Positions 15,164 to 26,315 of a stretch of DNA of 64,000 nucleotides are shown in pieces; positions within the stretch are counted from its first letter, which is position 1; every line of letters starts with the position of its first letter. The translations under genes and the position numbers were made by a program. A model generated the notes under the pieces. The model saw only the letters and a program-made list of their open reading frames with translations, searched no databases and was not told the DNA's origin. Source of the stretch: Roseivirga seohaensis (GTDB lineage Bacteria; Bacteroidota; Bacteroidia; Cytophagales; Cyclobacteriaceae). Location: contig NZ_LRPB01000048.1 of NCBI RefSeq assembly GCF_001592945.1, positions 310,001 through 374,000 on the forward strand, in the 5' to 3' direction.

Positions 15164-15505
15164 CTTTTGACATTAAGGTTTGGCTGAATATACCACTAAT
15201 GCACAAGCCTTATGCCTCCAAATCTGTTAAGCTAAGAATATTTGAAATGAATGGGGAATTATTGGTTTAAGGTAAATTGGTTATTGAGAAGACTGATTAC
15301 TAACAATCGGAAATCACTTAAGCTACTCAATTAGGCCACACTATTTCATAACCATATATATGCATACATTACGAACGAGACGTTTCCTTCACTTTTAAGA
15401 TTGAAAAATTTTCAAAGACTTTCACCCACAATTAATGGTGATAGATTAAATTGTGCACTAGGTGTTCACATTTTACCAATAAAGGATATTAAGGAGTAGC
15501 AATTT
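15164..15505. other. Divergent regulatory interval, M14 peptidase / ECF sigma
   Basis: About 340 bp between divergent genes. No open reading frame of note. Its right end carries the first copy of the TGTTCACA-N12 motif and an AAGGAG ribosome-binding site for the sigma gene. The left part must contain the peptidase promoter, but no clear TAnnTTTG box was found there. Confidence 0.5.
15463..15492 (+). promoter_or_regulatory. Candidate ECF promoter, copy 1 (sigma gene)
   Basis: TGTTCACA (15463-15470), 12 nt, then AGGATATTAA (15483-15492). The same two blocks with the same spacing occur before the T9SS-protein gene and the OmpA-like gene. Here the second block abuts the AAGGAG at 15491-15496 and lies 13 bp before the ATG, so a transcript started from it would have a very short leader. 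Confidence 0.55.
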
Positions 15506-16093
15506 ATGGCGAAAACACGCGGAGGTTCTTCAGCGAACCTGTCAGATGGGAATGAGGTGATTGAACGAATTCGCAGAGGAGACCAGTCGGTTATATCTGC
15601 TATTTACAGACAGCTTCGCCCTGAGTTTTTGAGCTGGGCTGCTATTCGCTTTAAGGTAGATCAGGAACAGGTAATCGATGTTTTTCAGGAATCGGTGATT
15701 GTTTTCTACAGAAATGTGGCAAAAGGGAAGCTGACTGAATTAAATATCTCGGTAAAAACCTACCTGTTTGCTATTGGTAAGAATTTGCTACTAAAAACAA
15801 TAAGAGACGAAAAAATACATCTCGACATAGATGAATTGCCGGCAGAGGCTTTTGAAGATTGGGAATTGGAAAAAGTGTACGAACAGAGCCATAGTAGGCA
15901 GCTTTTGTCAAATGCGTTAGATTCACTGGGAGCACCTTGCAAACAGATAATTCTGATGTTTTACTATCGCGAATTTTCTATGGAGGCTATTCAGGAACAG
16001 CTGGGGTATAAAAGCGAAGCTGTGGCCAGAACACAAAAAAAGCGCTGCATGCAATACTTAAGAGAGGTGCTCAATACAAAGGATAAAAAATAG
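15506..16093 (+). CDS. ECF-type RNA polymerase sigma factor
   Basis: A 195-residue sigma-70 family protein. Region 2 (about 25-95) contains the core-binding helix and the -10-reading segment (VIDVFQESVIVFYRNV). Region 4 (about 125-185) holds the helix-turn-helix (EFSMEAIQEQLGYKSEAVARTQKKR). There is no region 1.1 or 3, so it is an extracytoplasmic-function type. The start follows an AAGGAG by nine bases. The stop codon shares one base with the GTG start of the next gene (TAGTG), indicating tight coupling. A shared motif upstream suggests it controls itself and two neighbouring units (inference). Confidence 0.93.
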   Translation: MAKTRGGSSANLSDGNEVIERIRRGDQSVISAIYRQLRPEFLSWAAIRFKVDQEQVIDVFQESVIVFYRNVAKGKLTELNISVKTYLFAIGKNLLLKTIRDEKIHLDIDELPAEAFEDWELEKVYEQSHSRQLLSNALDSLGAPCKQIILMFYYREFSMEAIQEQLGYKSEAVARTQKKRCMQYLREVLNTKDKK

Positions 16094-16854
16094 TGAACGA
16101 GAGAGACTATCAACTTATAGAAGATTACCTGAACGGAAGCTTGAAAGCTTCGGAAAAGGCAGAGGTTGAAGCACGTTTGATGCAAGACAATGCCTTTGCT
16201 AAAATTTTAGCTCAGCAGCAAGATTTACTTGCCGTGGTAGATAAAAAAGTGGAGGATGATTTAAGACTGCTACTGGCCGAAGAAGAAGCTAAGCTTAGCA
16301 ATAACGTAACGAATAAAGTAAGTTCGCCAACAATACCTATTAGCAGGTGGCTCAGTGTGGCAGCAGCTGTAGTTGTGCTAATTACGGTTGGCTGGCTACT
16401 TTTTAGAAACGAATCGAGCCCCAATGGGTCAACTTTGTTTGCTGAAAATTTTACAGCCTACACCAATATTATTGCCCCAAACCGTAGGGGGGAAAATGAT
16501 GAAAGCCGTCTAAGCCTAGCATTTCTAGCATATGATAATAAGCAATACCAAAAAGCAATTGCTGATTTTGAAACACTGAAAAGCGATACCCTTAAGAGCG
16601 AGCTCACTTTTTACATTGGGGTGAGTTATTTGGCAATAAATGAAATTGAAAAAGGTATAATTACCTTAAAAGATGATGCAATAGACAGCAAGTTTGCCAT
16701 GGAAAAGCAGTGGTATTTGGCACTTGCATACCTAAAGAAAAACGATATTGATGCTGCTAAGATAGCGTTGAATAAGGCCTTACATCTTTCTACAGACCCC
16801 GTACTTGGCAGAAATGTATCCGAACTACTCGATAAAGTAAACTCGATTGAGTGA
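16093..16854 (+). CDS. Anti-sigma-like single-pass membrane protein with TPR-like C-terminus
   Basis: A 253-residue protein starting at GTG, which overlaps the sigma stop by one base. The N-terminal 80 residues begin with YQLIEDYLNGSLKASEKAEVE, the DYLnGxLxxxexxxvE pattern typical of cytoplasmic anti-sigma and zinc-finger-like domains, but without His/Cys zinc ligands. One membrane helix lies at 86-104. The periplasmic part (about 140-250) has two or three degenerate tetratricopeptide repeats (KAIADFETLKS, then IDAAKIALNKAL). Topology and position argue that it holds the sigma factor at the membrane and senses a periplasmic partner through the TPR part. That role is inferred, not shown. Confidence 0.75.
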   Translation: MNERDYQLIEDYLNGSLKASEKAEVEARLMQDNAFAKILAQQQDLLAVVDKKVEDDLRLLLAEEEAKLSNNVTNKVSSPTIPISRWLSVAAAVVVLITVGWLLFRNESSPNGSTLFAENFTAYTNIIAPNRRGENDESRLSLAFLAYDNKQYQKAIADFETLKSDTLKSELTFYIGVSYLAINEIEKGIITLKDDAIDSKFAMEKQWYLALAYLKKNDIDAAKIALNKALHLSTDPVLGRNVSELLDKVNSIE

Positions 16855-16865
16855 GTTTTGTATCC

Positions 16866-19800
16866 TTAACCTTTATTCCAAACCTTTTTTCTCCACAAAG
16901 CGGTTCCACTTACTAAGGTAAGTGCTACCAATACAATTAGCCATAAGTTAAAACGATTAGGCTGGGTAATGGCTTTTTCGTTACCCGAAAGCACAAATCC
17001 AGCCCAATAGAATGGGTGTGTCATGCGGTCGTTGTTCGCTTGTTTTAAGTATTCAGTTTTTGCCAAATGAAGTGCTTCTGTTTTAGATTTTTCAGTCTTA
17101 ACACCCTCATAAAAGTTATTCATCAGTGTTTTGGTTTCCTTGTCGGGAACCATCCAAAGGCTCATTAAAGTTGCTGGACAACCAGCTGCAGTAAAAGCTT
17201 GGGAAAGACTGAGCACTCCTTCGCCTGGGAGTAAACGGCCGTAACCTGTATTGCAAGCACTGAGCACAACCAGTTCTGTATTGAAATTCTGATGATAGAG
17301 CTCCGAAACACTCAATTGCTCATCGTCATTTTCAACGTCTGGCGTAAACAAAAAACTCGAATACATCGGCTGATCATTATTGATGGTACTGTGCATGGCC
17401 AAATGCATCACTTTATAGTTTTCGCCAGCTTTTAAAAGTGCAGACTTTGTAGCGTTTTCGCCTGTAAACATATCCCCATTCATCAACACAGATAGTTCCT
17501 CAACTTCTTCTTGTGCCCCGGGAAGTATCGAGACCCACTCCTTACTTGTGGTATAATTGACCGCTTTTGTTTGGTGATATTCAGGAGCAAAACCTACCCA
17601 GAATTGGTGTGCCTTACGCTCCGTTTCGTTGAGTTGTTTGTTCCATAAAGTAGCTGAATAAGCATAATGAACACGGAATTTGTGCAGTAAATACGATAGG
17701 CCAGAAAAGCTATTCTCTGCTTTTTGTTGGGTTACCAAGGTCTCAAACGGAATGGTACTGATTTCCTTATCGGGGATAATTAGCAGGTTTTTATAGTTTT
17801 GTACATACTTAAAAACAGGAGCAACTAGCGATTGGTGAAGTGCATAGGCAGCGTTACTATACTCCATTGGTGAAGCTCCAGGATTTAACAATAACTCACG
17901 ATACTGTGCTATCTGCTCTCTTACAGCGGCCGCATTTTCAAATTGCTGGGCAACAATATCTTGCTGAGTAATTGTGTAAATAAAGAAGCGGTCATCGTGA
18001 AGAGAATAAACCAACGTAGCAGTCTTTTCGTCAAGCTGTTGCTGTATTTCGGTTAGGCCAACAGGGGTCACATTACGTTTTAACCCATAATATTTAGGGA
18101 AATTTTCTTGAAGTTGCGCCTCAAAAATCTGGTTATCCTTGTGCAATTGAAAAAGCTCATTATAAGCATTTCTCAGTGCAGTACTATCGGTTTGCTCCTT
18201 CTGACTTTCTTTAAAAATACTTCTCTCAACTTCTGCAATGCGTTTTTTAAAGTCTCTGTCTCGTTCATAAATATCTTCTGGTAACTCGGCCAGTGTACGC
18301 ACTTCTTGGTCATTAAAATAAAGTAGTGTTTTGTTAATTTTGGCTTGTTCAGACACTCTAAATGCACTTACACTAAACTTCTTTTGCCCGGTAATTTCGA
18401 AGAGATCAAGCAATATAGACTGCTGTATGGACATGGCTCTGTCGAAACCTCTTTTGTAAAATAACGATGCGTATTCTGTTTCCCCTACCTCCTCGAAATG
18501 AGCCACTGCTTGTTCAATATTTTGTAATGCCACTTGCAGAATTTGCTCCTCCTCTTTCGGCTTTTGCTTTGCCAATTGCTTCAGGTAGAATGCGTGGTTG
18601 CTCAATAATGTAGCCGAGTTGCTTTGTAACGACTGTTCGTTTCGGTTAAATATCCGAATGGTTGTATCGGGAGCTAGACTTTTGTTTCCATGAGCATCGT
18701 ACCTCAGCGAGAAGAGGCTATACAGCAATGCATTTTCATAATCGCCTTGTGCATCGTAAGTCTTCGACAACGAATATGTTACATAACCAAACATATAGTC
18801 GTTTGGGTTGGCTGTACGTGGCAAAATTTTGAGAAGTTCAGCTACTGCCTTTTTGTATTGTCCTTTATACCTAAAAAGGTTTGCTTGTGCTGTAAGGTAG
18901 CGGGTTTGCCATGTTGGGTGATTTATCATGGTTGGTACATCATAAGCTGCTTGGTAGTAATGTTGAGCGGAATCATAATGCTCCATTGCTTCGTGTGTTT
19001 GCGCTATTAATGAGTAAGTTGTGGCCAAATCGTACTGGTATTCAAAACCAGTCTCCTTTTGCGCATCAGCAAGTGGTTTTAATAGCTTTATACCTATATG
19101 GTAGAAACGCAAAGCCTCATTGTAGTTTTCAAACGAAGAATGTTTACTGGCGATTTCTATATACGATCTAAAAGGGTTTAATCCTTGTTTAATTTTTAAG
19201 TCGAGCGCCTTTTGTAGATAACTTAAGCTCTCATCGGTGTCTAAATAAGCGCCAAGATTTTCGTATCCAACAATAAGATAATCTGGATTTTGTTCAGCTA
19301 CTTGCTCCCAATTTTCTACTGCCTTTTTAAAGTGAAAAATGGCTTTTCTGTGAAACTCCATGCTACGATAATTTGCCGCAAGGTTGTTATGTACTAGCCC
19401 AATATCGGCAAATGCACTAGGTGTGTTTTCATAATAAAGCTCCAAGGATTTTTCCAGGTAGTAGAAAAGGCTATCAGGATTTCCCGCACCGCCATGTAGC
19501 TCACCTAGATTGTAAAGGGCATCTATGGTATGTTTGTTTTTCTCGCCAAAGTGCTTGTTATATAGTTTCAAGGCTTTATGGCTATGGTTAATTGCTGACT
19601 CAAACTCACCTTTATATCCCAATACCATGCTGTATTGGTTCTGGAGTGTTGCAATGAGGGTATCTGACAGGCTCAGCTTCAGAGTTTCGATCAACAGATT
19701 TTCGGCCTTGCTATAATCTTCCGTTTCAAGTAATTCAGAAACTCTGAGGCTATTGGTCATAGCTGCTTCCAAATTGTTGTTTTGTCCCTTAATACTTAAG

Positions 19801-19868
19801 ATAGATGCCCTAAATACTAATATGAGCAAGCAAAGCTTTAGTAATCTTGAGAAATAGGAAATATTCAT
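16866..19868 (-). CDS. TPR-CHAT caspase-like protease, membrane anchored
   Basis: A 1000-residue protein. It has an N-terminal signal peptide (about 1-28), many tetratricopeptide repeats (40-460), a helical linker (500-600) and a CHAT domain (about 605-965). The catalytic dyad is H826 (in HLAMHSTIN) and C872 (in LSACNTG, followed by GEGVLSLSQAF). A single helix at about 972-990 ends in a short basic tail. The predicted layout puts TPRs and protease in the periplasm, anchored by the C-terminus. CHAT domains are caspase-like cysteine peptidases, often triggered by ligand binding to fused repeats. It converges on the sigma/anti-sigma pair, with 11 bp between stops. Confidence 0.9.
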   Translation of the reverse strand: MNISYFSRLLKLCLLILVFRASILSIKGQNNNLEAAMTNSLRVSELLETEDYSKAENLLIETLKLSLSDTLIATLQNQYSMVLGYKGEFESAINHSHKALKLYNKHFGEKNKHTIDALYNLGELHGGAGNPDSLFYYLEKSLELYYENTPSAFADIGLVHNNLAANYRSMEFHRKAIFHFKKAVENWEQVAEQNPDYLIVGYENLGAYLDTDESLSYLQKALDLKIKQGLNPFRSYIEIASKHSSFENYNEALRFYHIGIKLLKPLADAQKETGFEYQYDLATTYSLIAQTHEAMEHYDSAQHYYQAAYDVPTMINHPTWQTRYLTAQANLFRYKGQYKKAVAELLKILPRTANPNDYMFGYVTYSLSKTYDAQGDYENALLYSLFSLRYDAHGNKSLAPDTTIRIFNRNEQSLQSNSATLLSNHAFYLKQLAKQKPKEEEQILQVALQNIEQAVAHFEEVGETEYASLFYKRGFDRAMSIQQSILLDLFEITGQKKFSVSAFRVSEQAKINKTLLYFNDQEVRTLAELPEDIYERDRDFKKRIAEVERSIFKESQKEQTDSTALRNAYNELFQLHKDNQIFEAQLQENFPKYYGLKRNVTPVGLTEIQQQLDEKTATLVYSLHDDRFFIYTITQQDIVAQQFENAAAVREQIAQYRELLLNPGASPMEYSNAAYALHQSLVAPVFKYVQNYKNLLIIPDKEISTIPFETLVTQQKAENSFSGLSYLLHKFRVHYAYSATLWNKQLNETERKAHQFWVGFAPEYHQTKAVNYTTSKEWVSILPGAQEEVEELSVLMNGDMFTGENATKSALLKAGENYKVMHLAMHSTINNDQPMYSSFLFTPDVENDDEQLSVSELYHQNFNTELVVLSACNTGYGRLLPGEGVLSLSQAFTAAGCPATLMSLWMVPDKETKTLMNNFYEGVKTEKSKTEALHLAKTEYLKQANNDRMTHPFYWAGFVLSGNEKAITQPNRFNLWLIVLVALTLVSGTALWRKKVWNKG

Positions 19869-19952
19869 TGAAGTAATTTAAAAGCCTTTTTCATGACCAA
19901 TATAAAAGGCAAAACGCAGAGCATGAGGCATTTTTTAAAAAAGTTTCACCAC

Positions 19953-19982
19953 TGTTCACACCTACTATTCTCATGGTATTAA
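19953..19982 (+). promoter_or_regulatory. Candidate ECF promoter, copy 2 (T9SS-protein gene)
   Basis: TGTTCACA (19953-19960), 12 nt, then ATGGTATTAA (19973-19982). The second block ends 66 bp before the ATG at 20049, a comfortable leader length. It lies in the 180-bp divergent interval with the CHAT gene. No copy faces the CHAT gene itself. Confidence 0.6.
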
Positions 19983-20048
19983 CCCATGATTCATTGGGTT
20001 CAGACAGCACTCAGTTGATCAAAATTTTTGAAAATTAAATCAACATCT

Positions 20049-22856
20049 ATGAGAAAAAAACTACTCATTTTATTACTGCTTAGCTTTAGCACTTATGCAT
20101 GGGCGCAGCAATTTACGCAAACCATATCTTTCCTTGGTACAGGGGAAGACAGCAGACTAAAGGGCTTTGGCTCAGAGCTTTCAATGTATGGAGATTACCT
20201 AGTAGCGAGTGCGCCAGAGTACATAAACGACAACGGATTACGCAAATACGATGACATCTTTTACGTATTTAAGCACAGCAATGGCAGTTGGGCAGAGGTG
20301 AGCAAGTTGGAACCACCAACTGGCCATACTTTTGATGAAGCCACCGGTCGAGCAATTATCGGTAAAAATTTTATAGTGATTGGAAGAAAACCTAACGGAG
20401 GTGACACGGACACTTCTTTGGCATTTTTATACCAAAAGCAAACCGATGAAAGTTGGCAATTTCATAGCATGCTGCCAGAAATTAATAGAACCGGCATTCG
20501 CAATGTTTCAATGGATTTTACCGGAGACCATTTGGCTCTGTTTGTCAATAGTGACTCTGGCTACGAACTGATTGTGTTTGATGTATATGGCGTTGATGGT
20601 ACCGTTGATTGGGGAATTAGAGCAACGTTGGATTTGGGGACAGCAACCTCAATTAAAAATCAAACCGGAGGCCCGCTTGGACGAGGCGAAATATTCAAAC
20701 ATAAAAATGAATTTAGTGCTAACGGTTTTACTGGTCCGGCCATTGCCATGGACAACAAATCAATTGTTATCGGTTGGGATCAGTCATCAGTAGAATACAG
20801 CTATGTAACTCTCAACGTAAACGTGTATACTTATTCCAGCTTTAGTCCTAGGCAAATTCAGGCGGGGAAAGTGGATGTATATGAGCTAAAAGGAACAGCT
20901 GAAATAGAGCACAAGCAAACTCTTACACATACGGGCTACGATGACTTTCATCAGCTTGGCTACCAAGTAGGTATTTCTGGAAATACAGTTTTCACCACTA
21001 TGGAGGGTGGGCCAAATTCCGACCGAAAAGTCTATGTATTTGAGGTAGAGAGTGACGGAATTTGGTCTCAAGCCAAAATGTTGGCCCCTGCCGATTTAAG
21101 TGGAAACCATAAATACGGAGATAAAATACTGGTACGCGATAATAAGGCTTTTGTAGCTGCACCAGGCCTGACATACACCGAAAGTTCCGTAAATGCATCG
21201 GGAGTGGTATACGCATATGAGAGAAGTGCTCAAGGTGATTGGCAGGAAATACAAGCTATAAAGGGTGAGGTTATTCCTCCCAAAAATGGCTATGCCGGTG
21301 TTGGCCCATCTGGTTTTGGAACAGGTATGGCTTACACCGAAAACCTGCTTTTGGTAGGTGCTCCCAATACAAGCAATAGCTACTTCAATGATGCTGGCAG
21401 AGGAGAAGTTTATGCGTTTGGTTCATGCGAAGCAAAAACCTATGAGGTGTCAGAGTCCGTTTGTTTAGACGATGGAAATTATGAATTTGGGGGTCAGTAC
21501 TATTCTGAATCAGGAACCTATACTCACACTTTTCAGTCGGCTTTAGGCTGTGATAGTACCGTGGTGTTAAGCCTTACCATAAACCCATCAGATTTTGTAA
21601 TGCTTAACGATATCAATTTGCGAGTAGGTAATTCTATAGACTTTGGCGGGCAAACCATTACTGAAACAGGAGAATACGAGCTTGTACTGCAAAATCAGTA
21701 TGGCTGCGACTCTACAATAGTTCAGCCAGTAATCGTTTCGAACGATGACTTTGTAGGTCTTGGAGATGTGGAAATTTGTGAAGGCACCGAATATATTTTT
21801 GGTGATCAAACATTAACCGAGTCTGGATCATATCAACTCGATTTGAAGAATGAAATTGGTGGAGACTCTACAGTAGTAGTAAATCTAATTGTTCGAGAAA
21901 CCGATTTGGTTGTATTAGATGCAGTCGAGATTTGCGAAGGAACAAACTACCAATTCGGAGGACAAACCATTACCACATCTGGCGATTATGAGCAATTGCT
22001 AACGAATCAATATGGTTGCGACTCACTAGTAACGGTGAATGTAAAAGTGAATACTCCTGATTTTGTAATTCTAGATGACGAGAATCTATGCGAGGGTGCC
22101 ATTTACCAGTTCGGAGAAACAGAAATTACTCAAACCGGCATGTACCAGCTCTTTTTAAAAAATCAGGCAAACTGCGATTCCACCGTCCAGGTACAGGTAA
22201 ATTTTCATTCTCCAGACGTTGTAAATCTCAACACTGTAGATATTTGTGAGGGCGAAACATTTACGCTCGGTAGCCAATTATTGAATGCTTCGGGAGATTA
22301 TCAGGCCATTTTAGTTAATCAATATGGTTGCGACTCTACAGTAAATGTATCGCTAAATGTACTAGACAAACCTAACCCAAGTATAACCCTTGATGAGTCC
22401 AACACAGATGAACCAACACTTAAGGCAGAACCAGAGAATGCCACTTATCAGTGGATAGATTGCGCTACAGGGCAGGCCATTGCAGGTGCCACAGGCATCA
22501 CTTTTAAGCCAACAGTTTTTGGCGATTATGCAGTCGATGTTACCTTAAATGGATGCACACAGCGTTCGCAGTGTTTTAGCTTACAAGTACTAAGTGCTGA
22601 AGATGAGATTGAAATCAGCAATAGAATTTCCGTCTTTCCTAACCCTGCAGAAGACATGTTTAAAGTAGAAATGCCGGCTGTTTATCGAAAGATAAAGGCA
22701 ACCATTTACAATACTCAAGGCATTGTGCAGAGCACAGCTACTTTCAACAATCGGCAGGCTTTCGAACTCAGTTTGGCGTCACTCCCTCAAGGTATTTATA
22801 CGTTGCGAATTATTGCAGATGAAAACCGAGGTACCAAGCGAATTTTTAAGCAATAA
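20049..22856 (+). CDS. T9SS-exported repeat protein with N-terminal propeller-like region
   Basis: A 935-residue surface or secreted protein. The ATG of MRKKLLIL is preferred over the TTG seven codons upstream because it gives a clean signal peptide ending WAQ. Residues 20-455 contain blades with the pattern GFGxxLSMYGDYLVxxAP and LLVGAPNT, like FG-GAP/integrin-type propellers. Six repeats of about 50 residues follow (nt 21425-22364), each with variants of CEGxxYxFGxQxxTxSGxY and GCDSTVxVxL. The last 75 residues form a type A sorting domain (VFPNPAEDMFKVE, then LPQGIYTLRI, ending KRIFKQ) that directs export through the type IX secretion system. First gene after candidate ECF promoter copy 2. 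Confidence 0.88.
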   Translation: MRKKLLILLLLSFSTYAWAQQFTQTISFLGTGEDSRLKGFGSELSMYGDYLVASAPEYINDNGLRKYDDIFYVFKHSNGSWAEVSKLEPPTGHTFDEATGRAIIGKNFIVIGRKPNGGDTDTSLAFLYQKQTDESWQFHSMLPEINRTGIRNVSMDFTGDHLALFVNSDSGYELIVFDVYGVDGTVDWGIRATLDLGTATSIKNQTGGPLGRGEIFKHKNEFSANGFTGPAIAMDNKSIVIGWDQSSVEYSYVTLNVNVYTYSSFSPRQIQAGKVDVYELKGTAEIEHKQTLTHTGYDDFHQLGYQVGISGNTVFTTMEGGPNSDRKVYVFEVESDGIWSQAKMLAPADLSGNHKYGDKILVRDNKAFVAAPGLTYTESSVNASGVVYAYERSAQGDWQEIQAIKGEVIPPKNGYAGVGPSGFGTGMAYTENLLLVGAPNTSNSYFNDAGRGEVYAFGSCEAKTYEVSESVCLDDGNYEFGGQYYSESGTYTHTFQSALGCDSTVVLSLTINPSDFVMLNDINLRVGNSIDFGGQTITETGEYELVLQNQYGCDSTIVQPVIVSNDDFVGLGDVEICEGTEYIFGDQTLTESGSYQLDLKNEIGGDSTVVVNLIVRETDLVVLDAVEICEGTNYQFGGQTITTSGDYEQLLTNQYGCDSLVTVNVKVNTPDFVILDDENLCEGAIYQFGETEITQTGMYQLFLKNQANCDSTVQVQVNFHSPDVVNLNTVDICEGETFTLGSQLLNASGDYQAILVNQYGCDSTVNVSLNVLDKPNPSITLDESNTDEPTLKAEPENATYQWIDCATGQAIAGATGITFKPTVFGDYAVDVTLNGCTQRSQCFSLQVLSAEDEIEISNRISVFPNPAEDMFKVEMPAVYRKIKATIYNTQGIVQSTATFNNRQAFELSLASLPQGIYTLRIIADENRGTKRIFKQ
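21425..22364 (+). repeat. Six tandem CDST-type repeats inside the T9SS protein
   Basis: Six protein-level repeats of about 48-50 residues, diverged at DNA level. Most carry an early Cys (in CEG) and a late Cys (in GCDS), probably paired. Repeat 2 lacks the first Cys (NLRVGNS) and repeat 3 the second (GGDS), so those two could not form the same internal bond. Confidence 0.8.
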
Positions 22857-22892
22857 AGACATCAGTTTACTAATTTTTAAATAGTTAAATCA

Positions 22893-23345
22893 ATGAGAAG
22901 ATTAAATCTAAAATATATAGTTCTCTGCTTGGTTTTGGCCGTTTGGTCATGCAATAGCGGTAGCGATGAAGAGCCAACGGAACAAGAGTTAGTAGTGAAA
23001 GCCCTGACAAAAACCTGGGGTATAGCTCCAGGAAGAAGCGTTGTTTTTCAAGGGCTCGATGCTTCAGTTTTTTGGGCGGATTTTGAATTGAGTTTTACCG
23101 ACCGAAGGAGCTTTACCGTTTCTGGTGTACCAAGTGGCTATGACGATGTTTGGCCAGCATCTGGCACCTTTACCTTTCCAGATCCTAAAGATCCAAACTT
23201 AATAGAGCGCAACGATGGCGTTTTTATTAAGATCGAAATAACCTCTGAGACCAGAGTAGAGTTGGTTTTTGAACTTAACGACACCGGAGGGAGCGCGTTC
23301 GGAACAAGCGGCAACTACAGGTTCATGCTTGCTTCAGGTAGTTAA
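22893..23345 (+). CDS. Hypothetical lipoprotein
   Basis: A 150-residue exported protein with a signal sequence ending in the lipobox VWSC (C20), the -2 tryptophan being unusual. The mature part starts with an acidic linker (SGSDEEPTEQE) and continues as a beta-rich domain starting LTKTWGIAPG. This resembles small Bacteroidota lipoproteins of the lipocalin-like/DUF5004 kind that begin with a K-x-W segment, but I cannot assign it firmly. It starts 36 bp after the T9SS-protein gene, so it is probably in its operon, and a terminator follows. Confidence 0.7.
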   Translation: MRRLNLKYIVLCLVLAVWSCNSGSDEEPTEQELVVKALTKTWGIAPGRSVVFQGLDASVFWADFELSFTDRRSFTVSGVPSGYDDVWPASGTFTFPDPKDPNLIERNDGVFIKIEITSETRVELVFELNDTGGSAFGTSGNYRFMLASGS

Positions 23346-23359
23346 TTTACAATTATAGG

Positions 23360-23383
23360 AGTCCCGTTAGGGACTTTTTTTCT
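23360..23383 (+). terminator. Terminator after the lipoprotein gene
   Basis: Stem AGTCCC/GGGACT with loop GTTA followed by a T run. It closes the T9SS-protein/lipoprotein unit just before candidate promoter copy 3. Confidence 0.8.
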
Positions 23384-23389
23384 TTTTAC

Positions 23390-23419
23390 TGTTCACATGA
23401 GTTGAGTAAATGATATAAA
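23390..23419 (+). promoter_or_regulatory. Candidate ECF promoter, copy 3 (OmpA-like operon)
   Basis: TGTTCACA (23390-23397), 12 nt, then ATGATATAAA (23410-23419). It sits directly after the preceding terminator and ends 20 bp before the ATG at 23439, exactly where a new promoter is needed. Confidence 0.6.
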
Positions 23420-23438
23420 GGTTTGAAAAAACAAACGC

Positions 23439-24353
23439 ATGAAATTAATACTACTAATCGGCCTACTTCTTTGCAGCCTTGTATTAAACGCTCAGGAAGA
23501 AAAGGATCATCCGCTCTTTCCTGCCTTTGAAGGCGCATCGATTTATCAATACGAAGAAACATCATTTGAACCTTACCAGCTGGTAACAGGCCTAGTCAAT
23601 TCAGCATATAATAGTTCTAAAAACAAAAAGGCAGAAGGCCGAATCTTTAGAATATTCTATACCATGCCAACCGATAAAGCATCGGTTTATGAGGTATTCA
23701 CCAACTTTAAAAAGGCGCTGCAAAACAGTCAGGCAAAAACAATTTTTAGTTGTTATGGCGATGAATGCGGAGATATTAGTCTTTTCTGGAAAGAGCTAGA
23801 GCCTGCGCGCTTTCAAATCCCTGTATACTACGGTGAGCGCTTTGCCTACCATGCCGCAAGCTTTAGCAAAGGTGGAAAGGCCTACTATGTAGCCATGGTT
23901 TTTGGCTATGGTTTGGGCGAACAGGGTTACGAGATTCATGTGGTGGAAGCAGAAGAAATGGAGCAGAAAGTTGATTTAAATACCCTTGAATCTACTTTAA
24001 ACGAGAAAGGCATGATTTCTATATACGGTATCACTTTCGATACTGGCAGTGCGAAAATCAAACCTGAATCGGACGATGTACTACAAGAAATTGCCAGCTA
24101 CCTCAAAGCAAACCCGTCTGTCAATATATATGTAGTAGGCCATACCGATGATGTTGGAACAGTAGCCTCCAACCTTACGCTTTCCCAGAATCGGGCAGCT
24201 GCAGTGGTTAAAAAACTAACCTCCGTTTTTGGGGTAAACAGCACCCAACTCGAAAGTTCAGGCGTGGGGCCTTATGCTCCGGTAAGCAATAATATTTCGG
24301 AAGAAGGGCGAGCGAAAAACCGCAGAGTAGAACTGGTAAAACGACTAAAATAA
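23439..24353 (+). CDS. OmpA-family outer-membrane protein
   Basis: A 304-residue exported protein with signal peptide (1-18, ending LNAQ). The first 185 residues form a domain like those of DUF4892-type OmpA proteins (FPAFEGASIYQYEE at the start). The C-terminal 110 residues are an OmpA peptidoglycan-binding domain: FDTGSAKIKPES, then VGHTDDVGTVASNLTLSQNRA with the D and R that bind diaminopimelate, and GRAKNRRVEL. It should tether the outer membrane to the cell wall. It is the first gene of a three-gene unit (gaps 14 and 1 bp), preceded by candidate ECF promoter copy 3. Confidence 0.88.
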   Translation: MKLILLIGLLLCSLVLNAQEEKDHPLFPAFEGASIYQYEETSFEPYQLVTGLVNSAYNSSKNKKAEGRIFRIFYTMPTDKASVYEVFTNFKKALQNSQAKTIFSCYGDECGDISLFWKELEPARFQIPVYYGERFAYHAASFSKGGKAYYVAMVFGYGLGEQGYEIHVVEAEEMEQKVDLNTLESTLNEKGMISIYGITFDTGSAKIKPESDDVLQEIASYLKANPSVNIYVVGHTDDVGTVASNLTLSQNRAAAVVKKLTSVFGVNSTQLESSGVGPYAPVSNNISEEGRAKNRRVELVKRLK

Positions 24354-24367
24354 GATAACCAAAATTC

Positions 24368-25321
24368 ATGATTATGAGAAAGATAATATATCTGCTTTTA
24401 GCTGCAGTGATTGGAAGCACAGCTATAGCGCAAGAAAAAAAGAAAGACGAAGTAAAACGTAAAGCGAAAGAGAAAACAGAAAAGCGTTTAGACGATAAAA
24501 TTGATAAAACAATTGACGGTGGTCTCAATAAGCTTGAGGGGCTTTTTAAAAGAAAAAATAAAAAGAAGAAAGGTGATGAATCAGAACCTGTTGATAGTAC
24601 CGAGACAATGGACATATCTACCTTAATGGGTTTAGGAGGAAATGGAAAGGAGATTAATATTAAGCCAAGCTATCAATTTAGTAGCAGTATGAAGAGTCAA
24701 TTCAAATTCTACGATTTGAAGAAGAATAAAGAAGTAGGTAATATTTACTACGAATACTTCTTTAGTCAAAATGATTACATCGGGATGAAATTTATGGATG
24801 AAGAAGGCAACCTTGGCAAAGCTTTCAACCTAATGATCATTGATGGCGATAATAGCATCAATTTTATGGAAAACGAGGGTTCAAAGATGGCTACCAGTTT
24901 TAACATGAATACAGCCATAAATTTGGATGAAGTTGCAGAAGAGGACTGGATGTCATCAGCCCAGTTAAAACAAACAGGAAAAACCAAGCAAATTGCTGGC
25001 TATGAGTGTGATGAGTATGTAATGGAAGATGAGACCGCAAACAGAAAAATGACATTTTGGGTAGCGCCTGCACTTAGCAATTTAGCCAATCAAATGGGCA
25101 ACATGTACAAGGGAATGCAAGGTAAAGGAGCAAGTATGGGCAGTAATCCTTTTGCAAGAGCCATAGGCGGAATGGTACTTGAAATGCACATGATCGATAA
25201 GGAAGAAAATATGGCCATGACAATGAACACACAGGAAGTAAATCCCTCACTAACCTATACCTTCAACACTGAGGGCTACCAAGTCTTCAACATGTCGCAA
25301 TACACACCAAACGGGAATTAA
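24368..25321 (+). CDS. Secreted DUF4412-like protein
   Basis: A 317-residue exported protein with a signal peptide ending near IAQ; the Met two codons in (24374) is an equally good start. A highly charged Lys/Glu/Asp segment (24-80) follows, probably a flexible linker. The domain from about 95 to 310 has AGYECDEYVMEDETANRKMTF, the pattern of DUF4412, a periplasmic family of unknown function. Met-rich stretches (MGNMYKGMQGKGASMG) stand out. Second gene of the OmpA-like unit. Confidence 0.7.
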   Translation: MIMRKIIYLLLAAVIGSTAIAQEKKKDEVKRKAKEKTEKRLDDKIDKTIDGGLNKLEGLFKRKNKKKKGDESEPVDSTETMDISTLMGLGGNGKEINIKPSYQFSSSMKSQFKFYDLKKNKEVGNIYYEYFFSQNDYIGMKFMDEEGNLGKAFNLMIIDGDNSINFMENEGSKMATSFNMNTAINLDEVAEEDWMSSAQLKQTGKTKQIAGYECDEYVMEDETANRKMTFWVAPALSNLANQMGNMYKGMQGKGASMGSNPFARAIGGMVLEMHMIDKEENMAMTMNTQEVNPSLTYTFNTEGYQVFNMSQYTPNGN

Positions 25322-25322
25322 C

Positions 25323-26042
25323 ATGATAAAAGCAATACAATTAATAATATTTCTGGCTGTAGCCGCTTGTGGTGGCAGTGGAGAAGGTACAGCCGTTAGT
25401 AATAGCACAACAGCCTCTGACAGCAAATGTCTAGAAGAAAATATCAACTTTCCGAGCAAGTTGCTGACCGAGCAAATGGTGCTTAAACTTATAGACACTG
25501 AAGGAAAAGAGCTGGAAGTAAATGGTAGTGACAACAACAAGCGCACTGAATGGAATAGTCGAGATTTTAATTGGGATACGGGCAGAAAAGGCAACTTCCA
25601 AGGAATGGAGCTTCCGCTTATGAACTCAATTTCGCTGTATAGTATGGAGATAGTTAAGGCCGATAATCCTATCGAGAATTTTAAATCTACTTACAAAATA
25701 CTAACTGATGAAGAGCGAAAAAAGCTCATGAAACAGTTGAGGGAGGGCTTAAAGGCCAAATTGGATGCTGATGAAATTACCGAAGAGCAATACAATATGT
25801 CGCAAGGATTTACTGGTGTCTTTGCCAAGCTCAATTATCAGAAGATTGACGAAAAAGTGGGTGACATTGCCATATGGGATGCCACAAGAACAAAGCTTAA
25901 TCCTGTCTCTATGGGGGCATTAATTGTGCAGTATGGTAAGGTAAGGTTTAAACTAAATGTAGATGTAGGAGGTGAGAATGACGAGGCCAGTAAAGCCTTA
26001 GCCATCAAAGTGGCGCAAAGTATAATCGCAAATTGCAATTGA
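25323..26042 (+). CDS. Hypothetical lipoprotein
   Basis: A 239-residue protein with a textbook lipobox VAAC (C16) followed by a Gly/Ser/Thr linker. The rest (about 40-239) is a soluble domain of unknown family with a charged helical middle (EERKKLMKQLREGLKAKLD). It starts one base after the DUF4412-like stop, so the two are surely cotranscribed. No catalytic motif is seen. The strand of neighbouring exported proteins suggests an envelope role. Confidence 0.7.
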   Translation: MIKAIQLIIFLAVAACGGSGEGTAVSNSTTASDSKCLEENINFPSKLLTEQMVLKLIDTEGKELEVNGSDNNKRTEWNSRDFNWDTGRKGNFQGMELPLMNSISLYSMEIVKADNPIENFKSTYKILTDEERKKLMKQLREGLKAKLDADEITEEQYNMSQGFTGVFAKLNYQKIDEKVGDIAIWDATRTKLNPVSMGALIVQYGKVRFKLNVDVGGENDEASKALAIKVAQSIIANCN

Positions 26043-26315
26043 CTACTTCACGTCTTATTATAAACAAGTAGTAATCGTCATTCCCAACCCACTGTCACAG
26101 GTTCTTCGAACCTGTGACTTCTTCTATAAAGGCGAGACATAATAATTAGAAAGGTTTGAATTTAGCTTTTTAGACAAAAACGCTCATCAAATTTTATCCC
26201 TAGAAACAAACCCAAACTAAAGGGATATTCATCAATCAATGCATAATACTACAAAGAACCATTTCAACGGATTAATTTCTATAAACCTATTGGCAACAAA
26301 TTCTCTCCAGCTTTA
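26043..26315. other. Gene-free interval with one strong hairpin
   Basis: Interval between converging genes. The only structure is a perfect 11-bp stem (26094-26104 with 26108-26118) with loop TTC. It lacks a T run but lies where termination of both units is needed. The flanking CGTCATTCCC is a phrase common in short intergenic palindromes. Confidence 0.5.

Follow-up and report, generated by a model that had tools for sequence, protein, structure and literature searches.

The ECF sigma locus of Roseivirga seohaensis

Within a 64,000-nucleotide stretch of the Roseivirga seohaensis genome (contig NZ_LRPB01000048.1, positions 310,001 to 374,000; herein the window, in whose coordinates all positions are given), a gene for an extracytoplasmic function (ECF) sigma factor lies in a cluster with genes for membrane and secreted proteins. 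The bipartite pattern TGTTCACA-N12-ANGNTATNAA occurs in this cluster as three exact copies on the + strand, at 15463-15492, 19953-19982 and 23390-23419, with second blocks AGGATATTAA, ATGGTATTAA and ATGATATAAA that can be summarized as GRTATWAA. The original prediction had placed three such copies on the coding strand, each before a gene or operon, and a scan of the window recovered all of them exactly. The features of the locus are as follows; the promoters are candidates, and the basis of each entry is given in parentheses.

15287..26297, no strand: block that the sister locus in genome G004 lacks (locus comparison)
15463..15492, + strand: ECF promoter 1, -35 TGTTCACA and -10 GATATTAA, for the sigma/anti-sigma operon, hence autoregulation (exact match, conservation, learned model)
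15506..16093, + strand: ECF sigma factor, 195 residues, recognition helix KSEAVARTQKKRC (TIGR02937, 59.4 bits against a cut-off of 42.9)
16093..16854, + strand: anti-sigma-like protein, 253 residues, with a helical cytosolic domain, one membrane segment and a TPR domain (AlphaFold models)
16866..19868, - strand: TPR-CHAT protein (caspase-like), 1000 residues, convergent to the sigma and anti-sigma genes (CHAT PF12770, E 8e-60)
19953..19982, + strand: ECF promoter 2, before the genes for a protein sorted by the type IX secretion system (T9SS) and a small lipoprotein-like protein (exact match, conservation; missed by the general model)
20049..22856, + strand: secreted protein, 935 residues, with an FG-GAP repeat match and a T9SS sorting tail (family scans)
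22893..23345, + strand: lipoprotein-like protein, 150 residues, proposed to share the transcription unit of 20049 (signal and lipobox by eye)
23360..23381, + strand: terminator-like hairpin and T run, AGTCCC-GTTA-GGGACT then T6, before promoter 3 (read from the sequence, no terminator scan run)
23390..23419, + strand: ECF promoter 3, directly after the hairpin and before the OmpA-like three-gene operon (exact match, conservation; weak in the general model)
23439..24353, + strand: OmpA-domain secreted protein (domain match)
24368..25321, + strand: secreted protein, 317 residues, without family match (family scans)
25323..26042, + strand: lipoprotein-like protein, 239 residues, without family match (family scans)

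Family scans covered nine proteins, eight from the block and one neighbor. At 195 residues and with TIGR02937 (sigma70-ECF) above its cut-off, the sigma factor has the size and family match of an ECF protein (regions 2 and 4 only, about 190 residues); its Pfam region 2 and region 4 matches lie below cut-off. The protein encoded at 16093 shares the topology and context of class I anti-sigma factors, with one membrane segment and a gene adjoining that of the sigma factor. Its full-length AlphaFold model matches TPR proteins, and the best PDB structural match of its N-terminal domain (Foldseek) is RsiW in the SigW/RsiW complex (5wuq), at a weak E of 0.59 and with no match under 0.001; a PDB sequence search returned nothing under E 0.02. 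The NCBIfam anti-sigma model detects 16 of 48 homologs of this protein at E ≤0.001; the window member scores 27 bits where the cut-off is 100. zf-HC2 is found in 6 of 35 N-terminal domains at E ≤0.1, the window member not being among them. The TPR-CHAT protein has an N-terminal hydrophobic or signal segment and a C-terminal membrane segment, and its PF12770 domain carries the HLAMHS (His826) and SACNTG (Cys872) motifs of a CHAT peptidase; we take His826 and Cys872 to be the putative catalytic pair. Neighborhoods were counted by tblastn with the window proteins in 50 nonredundant relatives having at least 4.5 kb of downstream sequence: in 38 of them the sigma gene adjoins the TPR anti-sigma-like gene, and 25 have a CHAT gene no more than 4.5 kb downstream, which is convergent in 21.

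The motif copies end 13, 66 and 19 nt 5' of the start codons at 15506, 20049 and 23439. For the T9SS-protein gene, we replaced the listed TTG at 20028 with the ATG at 20049, a choice of ours that gives a signal peptide. Leader gaps were counted in 54 motif-bearing ECF loci, nine of which gave no start; of the other 45, 34 have 10-13 nt separating the -10 block from the first in-frame start. Assuming the usual start-site distance, the sigma mRNA would be near leaderless, a predicted trait of the ECF group. Since a short leader is usual in the group, the caveat first attached to copy 1, that its second block touches the ribosome-binding site of the sigma gene, is answered. The terminator noted earlier in front of copy 3 is visible by eye as the hairpin and T6 listed above, and Roseivirga pacifica keeps the hairpin there with one paired change (AGCCCC-GCAA-GGGGCT). 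Just 5' of promoter 1, positions 15403-15462 (TTTCACCCACAATTAAYGGTGATAGATTAAATTGT) are also kept in R. pacifica, where everything farther upstream differs; this segment holds TCACC/GGTGA inverted pieces and a TAAATTGT box resembling the TAnnTTGY motif SM5 of Flavobacterium psychrophilum, and could possibly be a second promoter or a regulator site.

The motif in the genome and in Roseivirga pacifica

The complete pattern is rare and the 8-mer alone is not. Exact matches of TGTTCACA-N12-ANGNTATNAA number three in the 4.15 Mb genome, all inside the cluster, and a reversed control pattern has no match there at up to one mismatch. Of TGTTCACA by itself, the window holds 4 copies where 2.2 are expected, and 4 or more turn up in 14 of 100 shuffles. 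The pattern fades into background at two mismatches (17 genome matches; control 8 + 5) and at three (5 in the window against 3.8 expected). The motif is thus not scattered through the genome, and the earlier argument that identical spacing was unlikely by chance holds for the full bipartite form. As the pattern was formulated after the sites had been seen, independent support has to come from comparison.

Weaker copies, with one or two mismatches, lie at 14 places in the same genome, of which eight were inspected. In seven of these eight, an open frame of 185 codons or more, on one or the other strand, overlaps the copy; the eighth (L016) overlaps no open frame of at least 60 codons. None of them was taken as a target. 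The two weaker copies most like each other (L004 and L010, on G000:C22) sit inside the coding region of two paralogous open frames of 860-880 codons each, 18 kb apart. A looser form, GTTCAC-N16..18-TATNAA, gave 4 and 7 matches in two Roseivirga genomes against 7 and 9 for the control, and so yields no further targets.

Across 59 related genomes, 30 have a match at up to one mismatch, and control matches are roughly equally common; beyond the two Roseivirga, the one exact match (in G056) falls within a 440-codon open frame. With the pattern otherwise at background in these relatives, the exact TGTTCACA form is peculiar to the lineage of these two species. R. pacifica, the one relative found with the cluster, has the same three copies at the orthologous places; they are its only exact copies, with one further match at one mismatch. 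In an ungapped comparison pooling the three sites, 24 of 24 positions of the -35 blocks and 29 of 30 of the -10 blocks are identical between the two species (53 of 54 together), as are 32 of 36 spacer positions and 111 of 150 in the 50 nt upstream; the gap between blocks and spacers is small. The comparison with related genomes called for by the original prediction shows the motif to be kept in R. pacifica.

In the sister genome G004, 616 bp of other DNA stands in place of 15287-26297, between flanks that are 95.5% and 93.7% identical to those of the window. R. pacifica has 15403-26035 in common with the window at 83% identity (84.0% and 81.7% for two fetched parts) at another genomic place, its flanks being without match over 9.5 kb on the left and about 10 kb on the right. 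A sigma factor more than 50% identical to that of the window is present in 2 of 390 family genomes, the window's own and R. pacifica (next best, 44%); among 19 Roseivirga genomes, 2 have a full-length homolog of the T9SS protein. The shared segment has the same limits as the proposed regulon of about 11 kb, with its genes for the sigma, the TPR anti-sigma-like protein and the TPR-CHAT protein and its two target units. The whole looks like a single unit that some close relatives have and others lack; the difference from G004 may be gain here or loss there. No direct or inverted repeats of at least 10 nt were found at the block ends, the base composition of the block is not distinct, and the 5' part of the sigma gene does not have clearly fewer synonymous changes than elsewhere, which would have been a possible sign of a hidden element.

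Promoter elements and recognition helices of homologous sigma factors

Homologs of the sigma factor that are 25-43% identical often have a bipartite element just before the start codon: GTTTAC, GGTTACC, GGGTGAC or GTTCAC, mostly 17-18 nt, then ATTAA, ATAAA or ACTAA. A regular expression tuned by eye matches 60 of 110 homolog upstream regions, counting those of the window and R. pacifica, where shuffles give 5.4. To remove this tuning, we learned a model from 45 nonredundant homologs with the window and its ortholog left out. Of the 45 held-out regions, 21 score above the 5% shuffle level with the learned motif, GTTACCTT-N-tCATTAA, where 2.25 are expected, the shuffles preserving base composition only; applied to the window, the motif picks site 1 in register, with about 2% of shuffles as good.

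The element also recurs within loci. A motif belonging to the locus itself is found again away from the sigma gene in 13 of 25 nonredundant loci (14 matches, 2 of them in the window), while control motifs of another class average 1.45 matches, with a largest value of 8 in 2000 draws. A redundant first pass over 40 loci had given 22 non-self matches, where reversed motifs gave about 0.5; nearly all of the 22 are followed by an open frame. An initial swap test with short motifs discriminated poorly per locus (own 1.15, other-class 0.45, same-class 1.09) and was replaced by the stricter one. Family scans of eight target proteins found PKD domains in two, carboxypeptidase-regulatory-like domains in two, beta-propeller and cadherin domains in one, a receiver domain in one, DUF6973 in one and nothing in one.

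A paralogous ECF sigma factor offers a second case within the genus. A scan for its pattern, GGGTGAC-N15-TCAYTAA, found 26 matches, spread over 13 of 19 Roseivirga genomes, and none for the control; 12 are at the sigma gene, 11 at a divergent neighbor and 3 elsewhere. In the one member scanned (L089), the divergent neighbor encodes a response-regulator receiver domain protein. The paralog in the window's own genome (L095, G000:C22:602000-618000) has GGGTGAC promoters in both directions, and its divergent gene resembles the receiver-domain neighbor in other Roseivirga. Lone copies of the pattern (L225, L226 and L227) stand before genes with signal-like starts, as judged by eye, and mark candidate unlinked targets.

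In sequence comparison, the -35 variant tracks the region 4 recognition helix of the sigma factor. The set comprises 78 distinct ECFs that fit the helix pattern in the fetched loci, close relatives included, and the list of -10 blocks was widened to admit the variant of L026, which had been seen beforehand. Position 179 is Lys in three (window, R. pacifica and L026/L086), all with GTTCAC. It is Leu in 19, and the 12 of these in which a motif was found all have GTTTAC. Tyr occurs there in 38; a match was found for 31 of them, with GTTAC or GTGAC in all but L165 (GTTGAC, far upstream); the match of one Tyr case (L044) lies inside a coding region and is probably spurious. The only other GTTCAC promoter found thus belongs to a distant sigma factor (L086) that shares the helix KSEAVxRTxKKRC and whose identity to the window sigma beyond the helix is about 30%. 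At that locus (G023:C11), a GTTCAC promoter pair points in both directions, and the divergent gene encodes a 1649-residue beta-propeller and cadherin protein. A region 4 search of the 390 family genomes gave no further Lys179 sigma among the 30 of its matches that were obtained as loci.

The structure of SigW provides a possible rationale: its recognition helix contacts the -35 bases, and H174 touches the -32/-33 bases (PMC6713349). In a gapped alignment of the window sigma with SigL, extended by inference to SigW, position 179 would fall beside H174, which would fit the C found there. Mutual information between sigma residues and -35 class ranks residues 62 and 97 highest, both far from the helix; it reflects the tree as well as contacts and was not used as proof.

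A candidate local regulon

The best explanation of the three copies, to which we assign a probability of about 0.88, is that they are the -35 (TGTTCACA) and -10 (GRTATWAA) elements of a local regulon under the ECF sigma factor of 15506, with a membrane inhibitor. The sigma factor very probably turns on its own gene and two neighboring sets of cell-surface genes, an arrangement that would make it an autoregulated ECF with a predicted cognate promoter before its own gene and before its targets. The proposal that the motif is a -35/-10 pair for the adjacent ECF sigma gains support from the 21 held-out homologs, the recurrence in 13 loci and the tracking of the helix.

Several observations weigh against this reading. 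A few of the 60 regular-expression matches lie too far upstream for a promoter, and about half of the homologs lack a motif match, whether by the regular expression (50 of 110) or by the learned model (24 of 45); 7 of the 19 Leu179 sigmas are likewise without one. Twelve of the 25 loci show no recurrence of their own motif, and same-class motifs taken from another locus match as well (80 matches in 222 pairs, beside 14 in 25 own), so that the agreement is with the class and not with the locus. Helix and -35 classes largely follow the tree, and common descent therefore explains part of their co-variation, perhaps much of it. The Lys179/GTTCAC case depends on two lineages: in a tree built without region 4, L086 stands apart from the window pair with weak support, and in a tree of all positions, the window pair joins the GTTTAC group and L086 lies outside it at 0.92. 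In the window itself, the learned model gives no match at site 2 and a weak one, in register, at site 3, with 17% of shuffles as good. The general model thus picks the predicted autoregulatory site, and the two target units depend on the identity of sites 2 and 3 with site 1.

That last point would suit a situation in which copy 1 alone works as an ECF promoter and copies 2 and 3 are relics of upstream duplication or chance matches. We consider this improbable, since all three copies are kept in R. pacifica, where spacers change slightly more than blocks (on small numbers), and since the sequences around the copies differ outside the two blocks and so do not stem from a recent duplication. Chance resemblance of three AT-rich intergenic regions would be in keeping with the near-expected frequency of the 8-mer, yet it has next to no probability given the absence of a further exact copy in 4.15 Mb, the empty control at one mismatch in the window's genome, the conservation in R. 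pacifica and the recurrence across the family.

In a decidedly improbable alternative, a DNA-binding regulator would use the shared sequence as its operator, overlapping ordinary Bacteroidota sigma-A promoters, and no ECF promoter would be involved. Read from the sequence, TGTTCACA is nearly palindromic (TGT-TC-ACA, an imperfect palindrome), and a further conserved segment with the TAAATTGT box lies just upstream of copy 1, both of which an operator would explain. Against it stand the fixed spacing to the second block, the similar geometry and start distance in many distant homologs, and the lack of a palindrome in the classes GGTTACC and GGGTGAC; variants that follow the sigma helix fit a sigma factor better.

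From the motif, its conservation and recurrence across the family, the helix co-variation and the presence or absence of the block, we infer sigma binding, inhibition, a protease step and a signal in the following scheme. The three promoters would be read by RNA polymerase holoenzyme carrying the sigma factor of 15506, which at rest would be held by the membrane protein of 16093. An envelope signal would engage the periplasmic TPR domain of the latter, which may be cut by the TPR-CHAT protein of 16866; the freed sigma would then amplify its own operon from the near-leaderless promoter and induce the two target units, that of the T9SS-sorted surface protein and the OmpA-like operon. Such a regulon would be local, with sigma, inhibitor, candidate protease and targets in one block of about 11 kb, and its -35 element, differing from the GGGTGAC of the paralogous sigma in the same genome, would insulate the two.

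Several published systems come near to this arrangement. The protease step is modeled on Csx29/Csx30/CASP-sigma and on the ECF54 proposal. In the CASP system of type III-E CRISPR (clustered regularly interspaced short palindromic repeats), the TPR-CHAT protease Csx29 was shown to cleave the inhibitor Csx30, an ECF-like CASP-sigma is present, and three sigma motif matches lie within the locus (PMC10028731); the window likewise joins genes for a TPR-CHAT protein, a predicted sigma inhibitor and an ECF sigma, and has three motif matches of its own. No Cas family was found among the nine proteins scanned, the rest of the genome not having been searched, and Cas7-11, the mark of type III-E, is not among them. 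A PDB sequence search with the window's TPR-CHAT protein finds only kinesin light chain TPR chains and not Csx29, which counts against close kinship with CASP. A further difference from CASP is that the predicted inhibitor in the window combines a membrane segment with a TPR domain and that its CHAT protein carries an N-terminal hydrophobic and a C-terminal membrane segment, suggesting a periplasmic rather than an RNA-driven signal. ECF54 sigma factors also have CHAT-domain proteins in their genetic context, and proteolytic control has been proposed for them (PMC8999054); the window differs from that description in having an anti-sigma-like gene adjoining the sigma gene.

Within Bacteroidota, the SM6 motif of F. 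psychrophilum marks T9SS-linked ECF promoters with CGT in the -10 box, and an anti-sigma/sigma pair is among the SM6 genes (PMC9723704). The window sigma resembles this system, and SigP of Porphyromonas gingivalis, in its link to T9SS-related genes; in contrast to SM6, its -10 block GRTATWAA lacks CGT and its target is a secreted cargo protein, not the T9SS machine. Das/Dma (Bacteroides ECF21) and EcfO/Reo (Phocaeicola/Bacteroides) combine an ECF sigma with an unusual membrane-spanning inhibitor and control surface proteins or vesicle formation (PMC13088901 and PMC13114119). The window has a predicted inhibitor of this membrane-spanning kind, but Dma and Reo reach the outer membrane, whereas the window protein has 253 residues, one membrane segment and a TPR domain. 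SigW/RsiW, which gave the best if weak structural match of the inhibitor's N-terminal domain, comes from another phylum and has a zinc-binding inhibitor and a GAAAC -35 element. According to one survey, just 6% of Bacteroidetes ECFs have a class I anti-sigma domain next to them, and inhibitors of other classes are suggested for this phylum (PMC7406223); the 16093 protein could be one of these. Among the literature matches listed, none described the sigma/TPR inhibitor/CHAT set in Bacteroidota or these promoter motifs, which is not to claim that no description is in print.

ECF autoregulation is in itself ordinary; the value of the locus lies in the family-wide promoter classes, the relation to the helix and the compact unit of sigma, TPR inhibitor, TPR-CHAT protein and targets. 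A wider generalization, tentative and in our view doubtful, is that this is a portable envelope-signaling module of Bacteroidota, in which an exported, membrane-anchored TPR-CHAT protease would cut a TPR anti-sigma factor and free an ECF sigma to act on a few surface targets, with Lys, Leu or Tyr at residue 179 setting a -35 element of GTTCAC, GTTTAC or GTTAC/GTGAC, respectively. As far as the literature covered goes, the promoter specificities of most Bacteroidota ECF sigma factors are unknown; here, sequence by itself gives, for one family, promoter elements and target genes together with a testable relation of helix to promoter that extends over many genera. It also points to a candidate use of caspase-like CHAT proteins in envelope signaling outside CRISPR, and its natural, nonidentical sigma/promoter classes could supply insulated expression parts for Bacteroidota.

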